This document shows, piece by piece, positions 44,747-51,852 of a DNA stretch of 64,000 nucleotides. The translations under genes were made by a program, and so were the position numbers. The stretch's first letter is position 1, and every line of letters begins with the position of its first letter. Location of the stretch: positions 89,376 through 153,375 of IMG/VR virus record IMGVR_UViG_3300049855_000474; one strand, given 5' to 3'. The notes beneath the pieces are model-generated. The model was given only the letters and a program-made list of their open reading frames with translations. It made no database searches and was not told the origin of the DNA. The stretch comes from a virus.

Positions 44747-44751
44747 AGCTT

Positions 44752-44775
44752 CACAGTTCCTTGTGAACTGTGTTT
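44752..44775 (+). terminator. Terminator-like hairpin
   Basis: CACAGTTC and GAACTGTG, 8 bp, 5-base loop, followed by TTT. It lies 5 bases after the stop of the abundant gene. The U-run is short, so read-through into the tRNA region is likely. Confidence 0.6.
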
Positions 44776-44821
44776 GGAGACAAACTTAATCTCTTAGTAA
44801 CGATCAATCTGATATCCTTCC

Positions 44822-44933
44822 TTGTCCCGTAGGCAACTACTTGCAGGTTCAAGTCCTGCCCCTCTGACTGAGAATTCCTTATCTAAATAATGAATTTTGA
44901 GTCAGAGGGTGGCGAAATGGCAAACGCAGGCAA
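44822..44933 (+). tRNA. Circularly permuted tRNA-like gene A (Leu-type)
   Basis: Halves are in reversed order. First the 3' half: anticodon-stem strand TTGTC (44822-44826), a variable arm with a GTAG/CTAC stem and GCAA loop, T-arm GCAGG-TTCAAGT-CCTGC (44843-44859), acceptor CCCTCTG (44860-44866) and discriminator A. After a 36-base spacer comes the 5' half: acceptor CAGAGGG (44903-44909), TG, D-arm GCG-AAATGGCAAA-CGC with the GG pair, A26, and GGCAA (44929-44933). Acceptor pairs 7/7; anticodon stem pairs 5/5 (one G-U). The D-arm, long variable arm and A73 point to leucine. CCA is not encoded. The anticodon cannot be read because the join is unknown. Confidence 0.75.
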
Positions 44934-45003
44934 CAGGTAATAAAACTATTCTCCCAAGCTCTTAAACCGCTACTATTGTGATCTCTCTCTTCTGGTATCT
45001 CCT

Positions 45004-45114
45004 GCTAAAGATGATGGTGCGAATCCATCTCCCTAAGCAGAGTTTCTAAGTTCTACCTCATAGGTAATAACTCGGTGATTCTGCTTAGGGATGGCCCAAC
45101 AGCAAGGCGTTAGC
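45004..45114 (+). tRNA. Circularly permuted tRNA-like gene B (short variable loop, G73)
   Basis: 3' half first: anticodon-stem strand GCTAA (45004-45008), variable loop AGAT, T-arm GATGG-TGCGAAT-CCATC (45013-45029), acceptor TCCCTAA (45030-45036), discriminator G. After a 48-base spacer comes the 5' half: acceptor TTAGGGA (45085-45091), TG, D-arm with GCC/GGC, G26, TTAGC (45110-45114). Acceptor 7/7 and anticodon stem 5/5 Watson-Crick. The acceptor pairing continues 5 bp past the tRNA ends (CTGC/GCAG and more). Oddities: G instead of T at position 55 and no GG in the D-loop. G73 fits Glu or Gln among others. If all loop bases came from the 3' half, U33 would be 44998, but the anticodon is not certain. 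Confidence 0.7.
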
Positions 45115-45176
45115 ACTAAAACTAAGGACCAGAATTAAACGTCGTTCACATGCCGTAAACAGTAGTAAAAAATCCA

Positions 45177-45211
45177 GCCGGGCAGCAGGCTTCGCTGCCC
45201 GGCATTTTTAT
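45177..45211 (+). terminator. Rho-independent terminator after the tRNA region
   Basis: GCCGGGCAGC and GCTGCCCGGC form a 10-bp GC-rich stem with a 7-base loop, followed by ATTTTTATTT. It closes the tRNA transcript and precedes the ligase gene. Confidence 0.92.
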
Positions 45212-48759: not shown

Positions 48760-51700
48760 ATGACATCTGATAAAAAACGCCTTGCAATACTGAGCGATAT
48801 GCTGTACGTGCCTTCTTCTGAGGTACGTAACGAGCATTTAAACGCTTACACCTATAAGTTCGAAAAAGTCACATACGAGAAACCCACTGACGTTACTCGT
48901 AAGTGTGCCAACTGTGAGTTGTGGAAGAAGCCCTGGCGGAATGCTGAGGGTATTGAGATGTATTGCCACAAGCTGGGATACACCGAGACCGATTATTGCA
49001 ATAGATTCAATCCCAAGCAGGTTCGCAAAGTAGAGGAATACGAGGTTACCACTTATAAAGAGGTAGCTAACGAGTATTATGCTTTTGGTCGTGGAGATCT
49101 AGGGAAAGTTGAAAGAGTCTTCGGTGATTTCGAAGTAGTTGACCAGAGGTCAGCCCCTAAGTTAGGCATTCCTCTCAAGTTGAAGGAGGGGAGGGTATTG
49201 CGACCTGACCAGGTAGCTGTAGCGGAAGAATGGCTGAAGCATGGGTATGGAATAATTAAGGCACCGACCGCATTTGGCAAGTGCTCGAGCAAATCAAGCC
49301 TAATCGCTACATCTGAAGGACTTATCCCTATTGGAAAGTTTGTAGATAAAATATTAGGAAAAAAATATACTACGATTAGTGGACTTGATACCAAAGAAGT
49401 AAGTCACTTAAACTTATACGTGACTTCTAATGGACATAAGGCGAAAATTTCAGATGTGTGCCGTAAAAAAGCGGTTACCACAAAAATTCAAACTAAATGG
49501 GGTTATTCAATAGAATGTACTCCAGAGCATCCCTTACAAACAATAACGGACAAAGGGTTAAACTGGCGAGAGGTAAAGGATCTAAAACCAAATGATTATA
49601 TCGCAATTCGTGGTTTTGATTTCTATGGATCTCCTAAAAATCTTGAAGAGTACAGCTACATAAATACATGTACAACATCCCCTAATAAAAAACCCATAAG
49701 ACTACCAACTACTATTACACCCTCCTTTTCCCGATTACTTGGAGCTTTAACCGCAGATGGTACCCTATCTATAAAGGGTAGTATAGCTTACACAAAAACA
49801 GAAGAAGCCTTGATAGAGGATTTCAGAAATAGCTTAAAACAATTTGATCTAGAGTTAGATACTGTTAAAAATAGAACAGTAGAACATAAAGTAAGAGGTG
49901 GAATAACAGCCTTTCAAGAACTACTACAGATTATAGGCGTGAAGCAAGAAACTGCAAGGTACAAAGAAGTACCATGGATTGTATTGCAATCAGGCAAAGA
50001 AATTGCGAAACAATTTCTTAAAGGTTATTTTTCTGGTGATGGTGAAGTGGCTCACGAACTATCCCATATCGAATGCTCTAGTGCTAGTAAGCAATTAATT
50101 GAAACTATACAAATAATGCTACTAGGCTTCTGTATCCCCTCAATAATCTACCCAAAACCCGTCAAGTTAGAACAATGGGATTGCGCAAGAGATTACTGGA
50201 GACTGTATATAGGTCCCGCCTTTCTGAAGAAATTTCAAGAAGAGATAGGCTTCATAGACAAAACTAAAAAATCTACTTTACTAGAAGCTGCTGTTGTTAA
50301 ATATGACAACAGAAATAATAGTGGTAGCGAGTTTACACTTCCCATAAGTGGTTTACTAAAAAAAGCATACCAAGCTTTAATACTAAATAAAGCTAAGGCG
50401 TATGAGACGTGCAAACAGTTTAAACACATATGGGAGCGTGGATCTCGTGTAGACCCAAGAACACTAAAGCGTTTTCTTGAATTATACCAAGATTATCAGC
50501 ATCTCCCGGAAATCGCCGTACTACAGGAAATATACGACTTAAACCAAAATCATGGTCTATGGTTTGTTGAAGTAAAAGAAATTACAGAAGGTGCTGAGCA
50601 GTACGTATACGATATCACAGTTCCTGAGGGGCATTGGTATGTAGCTAACGGAATAGTCAGCCACAACACTGTCTTGTGGTGTTACCTCGTTCAACACCTA
50701 GGGATGAGGTCATTGCTTCTCGCACAAGAGGTTCGGCACTTAGCCGTAGGCTGGGAAGGTCTATACGAGCATACCAACTTAGCGGAGTTAGAGGAAGAAG
50801 CTGGAGAGTTTCTCTGGGGAAAAGTAGGTCATGATACGTCCAAAGTAGTGACCCAAGTGAGAAACTCAAAAGGGGAGCTTGTTGACAGAGTAGAATTTAA
50901 GTTCAAAAAGAGCAAAGACCCAGCAAAAATCTACCCTATCACGTTCTCAACGTACCAATCTCTACATTCAGAAAAAGGTTGGGAAATACTACAAACAAAA
51001 CTGAGGGATTCTTTTGGATTTATTCACTGTGAAGAAGCCCATCACTCCGCAGCCGAGACTTTCCACCATGTAACAAAATCCTTCAATAGCTACTACCGTG
51101 GTGGTCAGTCTGCAACACCTACACGCAAAGACCAAATGCATTGTGCTACATACGATACAATTGGACCAGTAACCGCTTTAGCTACAAAGGAGCAGATGAA
51201 TTGTGACTTCACTTTCATTAATACTGGGGTGTACCTACCTGATAAAGTATTCAACGGGATGTACCCACTGACCAATGTTTTCAATTTCTTAGCTACCAAT
51301 ACCGACGTACAAAACTGTCTTCTACAGTGGATGAATTACGACATCCAATCAGGAAGGAAGCCTCTGTATATCACCGAGCGTAAAGCTGATGCCTTCTCGC
51401 TAAAGAGTAAAATCCACCTGTCCGGATATAACGTCGAGCTGATCATGGGTGGTCAGAAAATGCAGAAACAACAAAAAGAGTATTCCGAGGAACTACTTAA
51501 TGGCTCACTGCATTGTATTATTGGTACAAAAGTAATCAAAGAGAATTACAACATTCCACCATTGGATACTTTGTACCTGCTGTACCCAAACTTCGTGGTA
51601 GAGTCTGAAGAGCAGATGACGGGACGTATTCGGCGCTACGTTCTGGATGCTGAGGGAAACCAAGTGTTCAAGAACAAGCCTCTGATCAGGATTTTCACTG

Positions 51701-51852
51701 TCAACTCTAGCCAAGAAGTGATGAAAAAGTCGATCAACTTCCGGAAGAATTTCTATTACAAGATGAGCTTCGAAGAGATTCAAGTAGATACCACAGAACA
51801 CGAGACGGAGAAACCAGATGATCGTGTATCGAGCAAACTGAAAGATTGGTAA
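48760..51852 (+). CDS. SF2 helicase (UvsW-like) with intein
   Basis: 1030 residues, 568 after removal of the intein. The N-terminus has a four-Cys cluster (CANCELW ... CHKLGY ... DYCNRF). Helicase motifs: Q-like LRPDQVAVAEEWL, Walker A APTAFGK|T split by the intein, motif II HCEEAHHS (E-E-A-H in place of D-E-A-H), motif III SATPTR, motif VI QMTGRIRR. Likely unwinds branched DNA or R-loops as UvsW does. Without splicing the ATP site is destroyed. Confidence 0.9.
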   Translation: MTSDKKRLAILSDMLYVPSSEVRNEHLNAYTYKFEKVTYEKPTDVTRKCANCELWKKPWRNAEGIEMYCHKLGYTETDYCNRFNPKQVRKVEEYEVTTYKEVANEYYAFGRGDLGKVERVFGDFEVVDQRSAPKLGIPLKLKEGRVLRPDQVAVAEEWLKHGYGIIKAPTAFGKCSSKSSLIATSEGLIPIGKFVDKILGKKYTTISGLDTKEVSHLNLYVTSNGHKAKISDVCRKKAVTTKIQTKWGYSIECTPEHPLQTITDKGLNWREVKDLKPNDYIAIRGFDFYGSPKNLEEYSYINTCTTSPNKKPIRLPTTITPSFSRLLGALTADGTLSIKGSIAYTKTEEALIEDFRNSLKQFDLELDTVKNRTVEHKVRGGITAFQELLQIIGVKQETARYKEVPWIVLQSGKEIAKQFLKGYFSGDGEVAHELSHIECSSASKQLIETIQIMLLGFCIPSIIYPKPVKLEQWDCARDYWRLYIGPAFLKKFQEEIGFIDKTKKSTLLEAAVVKYDNRNNSGSEFTLPISGLLKKAYQALILNKAKAYETCKQFKHIWERGSRVDPRTLKRFLELYQDYQHLPEIAVLQEIYDLNQNHGLWFVEVKEITEGAEQYVYDITVPEGHWYVANGIVSHNTVLWCYLVQHLGMRSLLLAQEVRHLAVGWEGLYEHTNLAELEEEAGEFLWGKVGHDTSKVVTQVRNSKGELVDRVEFKFKKSKDPAKIYPITFSTYQSLHSEKGWEILQTKLRDSFGFIHCEEAHHSAAETFHHVTKSFNSYYRGGQSATPTRKDQMHCATYDTIGPVTALATKEQMNCDFTFINTGVYLPDKVFNGMYPLTNVFNFLATNTDVQNCLLQWMNYDIQSGRKPLYITERKADAFSLKSKIHLSGYNVELIMGGQKMQKQQKEYSEELLNGSLHCIIGTKVIKENYNIPPLDTLYLLYPNFVVESEEQMTGRIRRYVLDAEGNQVFKNKPLIRIFTVNSSQEVMKKSINFRKNFYYKMSFEEIQVDTTEHETEKPDDRVSSKLKDW
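49282..50667 (+). mobile_element. Intein with LAGLIDADG endonuclease
   Basis: 462 residues from Cys175 to Asn636 of the precursor. The start is C-S-S-K-S-S-L-I; the end is VPEGHWYVANGIVSHN followed by Thr as +1 residue. Block B resembles ECTPEHPLQT. The endonuclease has two motifs, LLGALTADGTL and FLKGYFSGDGE. Inserted exactly between GK and T of Walker A, a favoured conserved site. Base composition is more A/T-rich than the flanking extein. Both splicing and homing residues look intact. Confidence 0.93.

Follow-up and report, generated by a model that had tools for sequence, protein, structure and literature searches.

Whether a transfer RNA (tRNA) gene can lie in a viral genome with its 3′ half ahead of its 5′ half is the question raised by positions 44822–44933 of a 64,000-nucleotide (nt) stretch of DNA, hereafter the window, which covers positions 89,376 to 153,375 of the 153,375-base IMG/VR virus record IMGVR_UViG_3300049855_000474 (here called G000). 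A first-pass annotation had taken this place for a leucine-type circularly permuted tRNA gene, whose transcript would have to be circularised at the anticodon loop in order to mature. Based on the sequence and its relatives, we consider it probable that the locus instead encodes a two-component ribonucleoprotein, consisting of a DUF7873 protein and, directly downstream of its gene, a Y-RNA-like, double-headed noncoding RNA of about 350–430 nt. Comparative analysis shows the predicted RNA to carry two permuted tRNA-shaped heads, in which the acceptor end forms a spacer-closed tip and the anticodon stems open into a common core of leader, middle and trailer segments. Given its link to DUF7873 across many phages and Streptomyces chromosomes, the RNA is probably one half of a new RNA–protein machine, and not a scrambled tRNA gene.

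The permuted order as such was described correctly. For the first head (head A, 44822–44867 plus 44903–44933), the coordinates proved exact, the acceptor stem pairs at 7/7 positions, all of them Watson-Crick, and the anticodon stem at 5/5, with one G.U among them. Once re-ordered, the sequence is called a tRNA by ARAGORN, and the covariation agrees, so that both stems indeed form only when the order is permuted, and the 16-nt variable arm together with all tRNA stems bears out the proposed class II geometry. A spacer is present at the acceptor end, albeit with a length of 35 nt after N73 instead of the 36 bases originally given. Further parts were absent from that description, namely the acceptor hairpin extensions, an intrinsic terminator (45177–45203) and a second permuted tRNA body, head B, which belongs to class I and is found at 45004–45114, seventy bases past head A (acceptor stem TTAGGGA/TCCCTAA, anticodon stem TTAGC/GCTAA). 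Folding of the region is far more favourable than that of shuffled versions (z −5.8). ARAGORN and Rfam did not detect the element in the window sequence in its native order; standard tRNA finders and Rfam miss permuted tRNA mimics precisely because of this order.

The element is far beyond chance, and chance is excluded. A profile search of viral sequences yielded 80 loci encoding DUF7873, 68 of them distinct, and a permuted-tRNA scanner written for this analysis was run on the 700 nt that follow the DUF7873 open reading frame. Here, 56 of the 68 distinct loci reached the score cut of at least 25, which was attained neither on the opposite strand (0/68) nor upstream (0/68), 1.5 kb further on (0/63) or in dinucleotide shuffles (0/680). 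Commonly, two units occur per locus, about 150 nt apart and in the same order. The isolates GodonK, NiceHouse, Mimi, PA-SR01, Vibrio phage D472 and RHph_Y65 each carry at least one unit, located in annotated gaps or small hypothetical genes, and in several phages the element sits inside tRNA arrays. A reverse search with a middle-segment motif as its starting point returned 13 viral matches, of which 11 are the element and 2 are due to chance; DUF7873 is encoded upstream in 10 of these 11, while the sequence of the eleventh (L203) ends 95 nt before the RNA. No close relatives were found by a DNA-level search of known phages with the window. The sole rearranged layout seen is that of L029 (6953–7232, minus strand), in which the two heads are encoded about 1.2 kb downstream of DUF7873, on the other strand.

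Comparison of the relatives also shows the predicted structure of the B-domain, i.e., head B with its adjoining helix, to be conserved with strong covariation. Alignment A3, comprising 33 B-domains, supports 31 pairs, 29 of which display double changes. In total, 92.7% of its cells are paired vs 38–46% with the partners slid, and 253 cells carry double changes vs 68 in shuffles; as the head pairs are scanner criteria, part of their pairing percentage follows from the selection itself, which does not apply to helix P2 or to the model matches mentioned below. This 9-base-pair (bp) helix, into which the anticodon stem runs via an internal loop, lies beyond the anticodon stem, was not a scanner criterion, and shows compensatory changes at 9/9 pairs. 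In L002, the nearest relative, the acceptor stem of head B is altered to ATCAGGA/TCCTGAT and its anticodon stem to TTGGT/ACCAA, in each case by double compensation, both heads are kept, and a similar hairpin with a T-run follows the element. Consequently, the loss of stems without compensation, which had been named as a possible refutation, is not what the relatives display. For head A, a helix between leader (GAGCR) and middle segment (YGCTC) was recognised by eye in the aligned sequences and in part by RNAalifold, which is weaker evidence than for head B.

The same arrangement extends to bacteria. A scan of GTDB species genomes gave 252 DUF7873 loci, and permuted units were present in 80/80 of those fetched, 78 of them recognised by the scanner, with L115 and L119 added by a covariance model. 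The fetched loci stem mostly from Streptomyces, but also from Actinoallomurus, Nonomuraea, Actinoplanes, Sorangium, Ktedonobacterales, cyanobacteria and Armatimonadetes. Using model R1, which was built from A3 with the window left out, we found the RNA (E ≤ 1e-15) in 61 of 101 Streptomyces-family genomes, 64 of which encode DUF7873; the RNA occurs in none of them without DUF7873, and wherever positions were compared, it lies directly 3′ of DUF7873 on the same strand. The corresponding Fisher p of about 2e-24 is descriptive only because of adjacency and shared ancestry. These comparisons show the predicted RNA and DUF7873 to occur together in phages as well as on bacterial chromosomes. Three Streptomyces-family genomes (G059, G106 and G032) encode DUF7873 without a strong R1 match, with only a fragment in G032, and may represent losses or divergent RNAs. 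The gene neighbourhood of the bacterial loci revealed no recurrent partner besides DUF7873, and the top neighbour cluster turned out to be an antisense artefact overlapping DUF7873 on the other strand. The parts of the element in the window are compiled in Table 1.

Table 1. Features of the DUF7873–RNA locus (positions refer to the window; aa, amino acids).
Feature	Position	Strand	Remarks
DUF7873 protein gene, 245 aa	44009–44746	+	PF25283 match; regular neighbour 5′ of the RNA, probable protein partner
Leader segment L	44747–44821	+	helix P5 5′ strand GGAGA 44776–44780
Head A, 3′ part	44822–44867	+	anticodon-stem strand TTGTC 44822–44826; long, 16-nt variable arm with GTAG/CTAC; T-arm GCAGG-TTCAAGT-CCTGC 44843–44859; acceptor 3′ strand CCCTCTG 44860–44866; A73 at 44867
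Head A spacer	44868–44902	+	spacer ends lengthen acceptor stem to 10 bp, 44860–44869 with 44900–44909
Head A, 5′ part	44903–44933	+	acceptor 5′ strand CAGAGGG; TG; D-arm GCG...CGC; A26; anticodon-stem strand GGCAA 44929–44933
Middle segment M	44934–45003	+	connects both heads; P5 3′ strand TCTCC 44950–44954; P2 5′ strand TTCTGGT 44990–44996; strand 44972–44979 able to pair with trailer
Head B, 3′ part	45004–45037	+	GCTAA; variable loop AGAT; T-arm GATGG-TGCGAAT-CCATC; TCCCTAA; G73
Head B spacer	45038–45084	+	spacer ends lengthen acceptor stem to 12 bp, 45030–45041 with 45080–45091
Head B, 5′ part	45085–45114	+	TTAGGGA; TG; D-arm GCC...GGC; G26; TTAGC
Trailer segment T	45115–45176	+	internal-loop strand; P2 3′ strand ACCAGAA 45128–45134; conserved TTAAACG 45135–45141; strand 45159–45166 able to pair with middle-segment strand 44972–44979
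Intrinsic terminator	45177–45203	+	10-bp G+C-rich stem, then ATTTTTATTT; probable transcript 3′ end
Model R1 full-length match	44974–45144	+	50.8 bits, E 4.6e-11, model positions 1–134

Near the terminator, Rfam matches to the trpB motif and others stayed below cut-off and appear chance-like. Elsewhere in the window, positions 48760–51852 encode a 1030-aa helicase with a seeming intein (residues ~175–640) inside the nucleotide-binding motif (GKC...HNT), in line with intein-like PHROG matches. The only ordinary tRNAs of the virus record (Asn-GTT, Phe-GAA and Lys-CTT; L014:10293–10532, corresponding to G000 50093–50332, minus strand) are located about 84 kb from the element.

Moreover, the acceptor ends look real, as would be expected if RNase P and the CCA machinery recognised them. 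An encoded CCA directly after N73, at positions 74–76, is present in 38 of the 103 viral and 19 of the 126 bacterial heads (0–3 at neighbouring offsets), and U is found at −1, before G1, in 67/103 viral heads. Many heads have short spacers of 5–13 nt, lengths of up to 139 nt also occur, and the discriminator base and the first acceptor pairs vary across heads. It is the encoded CCA and the U at −1 that suggest a handling of the heads by tRNA enzymes.

The core displays a regularity of its own. TNA (RRYTNA) motifs recur every 6 nt in leader and middle segment, and the leaders contain 236 of them vs 36.5 expected, the individual leaders of relatives holding 2–5 at this spacing. Chains of at least four were found in 56/95 leaders vs 0/95 in one shuffle, and the lag-6 identity of the core strands is 0.38–0.40 vs about 0.24. 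Pairing between leader and middle segment as the source of the repeats found no support, since for most combinations the variable N of TNA showed no covariation between the two segments beyond shuffles. A spacing of 6 nt is what would be expected of a protein contacting the strand every 6 nt. The DUF7873 protein of the window is assigned to PF25283 (E 1.1e-91, 307 bits vs a gathering cut-off of 27), a Pfam family without assigned function, and matched no family in NCBIfam; its AlphaFold model reaches a pLDDT of 92.4. The period is reminiscent of Cas7-type backbones, an analogy to be taken as a lead only and not as evidence, since Cas7 subunits topped the Foldseek lists of two DUF7873 models with non-significant values (E-values of at least 0.005, TM-scores of about 0.1). 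As a rather speculative extension, which we regard as unlikely, DUF7873 could coat the core strands with one subunit per 6 nt, reading TNA/RRYTNA, and thereby form a filament-like particle that presents two CCA-ended and possibly charged heads, i.e., a new ribonucleoprotein machine of phages and Actinobacteria.

Altogether, a two-component particle could work as follows, in order of falling confidence: DUF7873 would bind the RNA core; tRNA enzymes would handle the heads at their acceptor ends, with RNase P cleavage and a CCA end; and the whole would act in the manner of Ro60 and its Y RNA, DUF7873 sitting at the base while the heads tether or occupy factors whose substrates are tRNA or structured RNA, e.g., an exoribonuclease, a tRNA nuclease or tRNA-maturation enzymes. 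This function of the heads is a tentative one, for which we see a slightly less than even chance. Several observations weigh against the proposed particle. A tether or decoy function is argued solely by analogy with YrlA, a bacterial Y RNA; DUF7873 has no recognisable RNA-binding domain and gave no convincing structural match; U at −1 is not enriched in bacterial heads (29/126); and the B-domain model captures head A only partly. Furthermore, the window's own element encodes no CCA, and the 6-nt repeats are weaker in its core.

Among the alternatives, one could imagine a plain decoy, in which the anticodon-less tRNA heads soak up a nuclease of the host or of a competitor, or other tRNA-cleaving or tRNA-sensing factors. 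Such a role was proposed for YrlA (PMC7790460) and would suit the location within the tRNA arrays of several phages. However, the element is widespread on Streptomyces chromosomes without recurrent neighbour genes, and the elaborate core and the strict link to DUF7873 would be left unexplained, which makes a decoy an improbable answer.

A multi-piece RNA resembling transfer-messenger RNA (tmRNA) appears more doubtful. Here, RNase P and CCA processing in both spacers would leave three pieces held together by base pairs, with two CCA ends that could be aminoacylated, in agreement with the encoded CCA and the short spacers of many heads, and permuted tmRNA genes provide a known precedent (PMC10085705). 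On the other hand, spacers reach 139 nt, the variable discriminator and first acceptor pairs do not allow for a single amino-acid identity, and no tag reading frame or SmpB link turned up, neither of which was searched for. At gathering threshold, the tmRNA covariance model found nothing in the window or in the elements of the relatives. Gordonia phage GodonK, moreover, possesses a separate ordinary tmRNA; this gene (L044:2384–2912, 90 bits) lies in a tRNA array, at a place where the deposited annotation shows none.

That the element is a genuine YrlA, serving a Ro60 (TROVE) protein encoded elsewhere in the phage or its host, seems quite improbable to us, even though both have the permuted tRNA-like head in common. 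In 2014, Chen et al. reportedly found Y RNAs in the vicinity of Ro60 in over 250 bacteria and phages. In YrlA, the two ends pair to form a basal stem, beside a tRNA-like domain; Rsr (Ro60) and PNPase are both bound by this RNA, whose head was proposed as a competitor for anticodon nuclease (PMC8394870; PMC7790460). The YrlA model RF02553 gave full-length sub-threshold matches to L003 (45 bits), GodonK (38), RHph_Y65 (36) and Mimi (33), but nothing at the gathering level (69 bits in Rfam) in any case tested and no match in the window's element. In addition, TROVE is absent in G000 and in 11/14 phage records tested, and the RNA tracks DUF7873. Where Ro60 does occur, in RHph_Y65 and G007, it has separate YrlA-like RNAs of its own, kilobases away from the DUF7873 elements. 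On the latter, the R1 match spans positions 1–134, whereas on the Ro60-linked RNAs it covers the head only (RHph_Y65) or is strongest there, next to a longer but weaker match (31 bits; G007); hence, the head is common and the base differs. These YrlA-like RNAs beside TROVE/Ro60 are unannotated in the two phages (L210:771–1590, corresponding to RHph_Y65 138670–139489, and L211:2966–3261), and RHph_Y65 has three permuted units ahead of its TROVE gene.

Finally, true circularly permuted tRNA genes, whose ends are ligated at the anticodon loop and whose spacer is cut by RNase P and a 3′ nuclease to give a decoding tRNA, are very improbable. In their favour, the tRNA stems and D/T-loop elements are all there, CCA is encoded in many heads and the re-ordered sequence passes as a tRNA in ARAGORN. 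Against them, among 41 distinct A and 41 distinct B units no junction split features a conserved U33 (maximum 37%) or U33 with purine 37, the anticodon stem extends into the conserved helix P2, RtcB was not found in the virus's own genome, and the endonuclease pathway acting on bulge-helix-bulge (BHB) motifs was reported from algae and archaea (PMC3978253). Both this motif and the tRNA-splicing endonuclease are needed by permuted tRNA genes as described (PMC3978253). With U33 and purine 37 conserved at no split, the heads are not decoding tRNAs, and we infer that no decoding tRNA is made from the element. Maturation by circularisation at the anticodon loop, as initially assumed, is thus not upheld. 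A search of the own genome also recognised no true RNA ligase: its sole RNA-ligase-family match, a neighbouring ligase, was rejected as circularising enzyme, as it is an ATP-dependent DNA ligase and scores far better as such; this query had no close relatives in viral contigs. Likewise rejected were an ordinary intron-containing tRNA joining the 5′ part of head A to the 3′ part of head B, as these acceptor strands do not pair in the window, and a self-splicing origin from a permuted group I or II intron-exon arrangement, as no Rfam intron match was obtained in the window or the relatives; leader and trailer are also short for a canonical group I core. ARAGORN runs with a long intron on concatenated units returned arbitrary anticodons and were not used.

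The preferred reading of a DUF7873 particle corrects the attractive but unsupported one of permuted tRNA genes in a phage and links a protein family without known function to a conserved structured RNA. This family spans phages of actinobacteria, cyanobacteria, Rhizobium and Vibrio as well as 64/101 sampled Streptomyces-family genomes, and its function becomes testable via the RNA in common laboratory Streptomyces. The DUF7873-linked RNA seems undescribed; DUF7873 is unmentioned in the open-licence PMC papers searched, with a prior description elsewhere being possible. Permuted tRNA mimics would accordingly extend beyond the Y RNAs of Ro60. In this respect, the earlier remark that phages and bacteria have no described case may be right as far as genuine tRNA genes are concerned, but it does not extend to tRNA-shaped RNAs of permuted order, as YrlA (RF02553) is known in bacteria (PMC8394870).

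The element is reminiscent of three known systems. With the permuted tRNA genes of unicellular algae and Thermofilum pendens it shares the 3′ half before the 5′ half, a short intervening sequence and all tRNA stems, but differs from them in having no anticodon-loop signature, in that no RtcB or true RNA ligase was recognised in the own genome, and in its two tandem units linked to one protein gene (PMC3978253). A tmRNA has no real D-stem and carries a tag frame. The permuted two-piece form resembles the element in its permuted tRNA-like domain, the spacer at the acceptor end and the CCA ends, whereas the D-stems of the element are paired and conserved and its heads are two. Unlike YrlA, the element has two heads per RNA, other basal stems and another core, DUF7873 instead of TROVE as partner, and scores below the gathering cut-off; like YrlA, it follows the order T-arm, acceptor, D-arm, has its ends paired at the place of the anticodon arm, is noncoding and is encoded together with an RNA-associated protein (PMC8394870).
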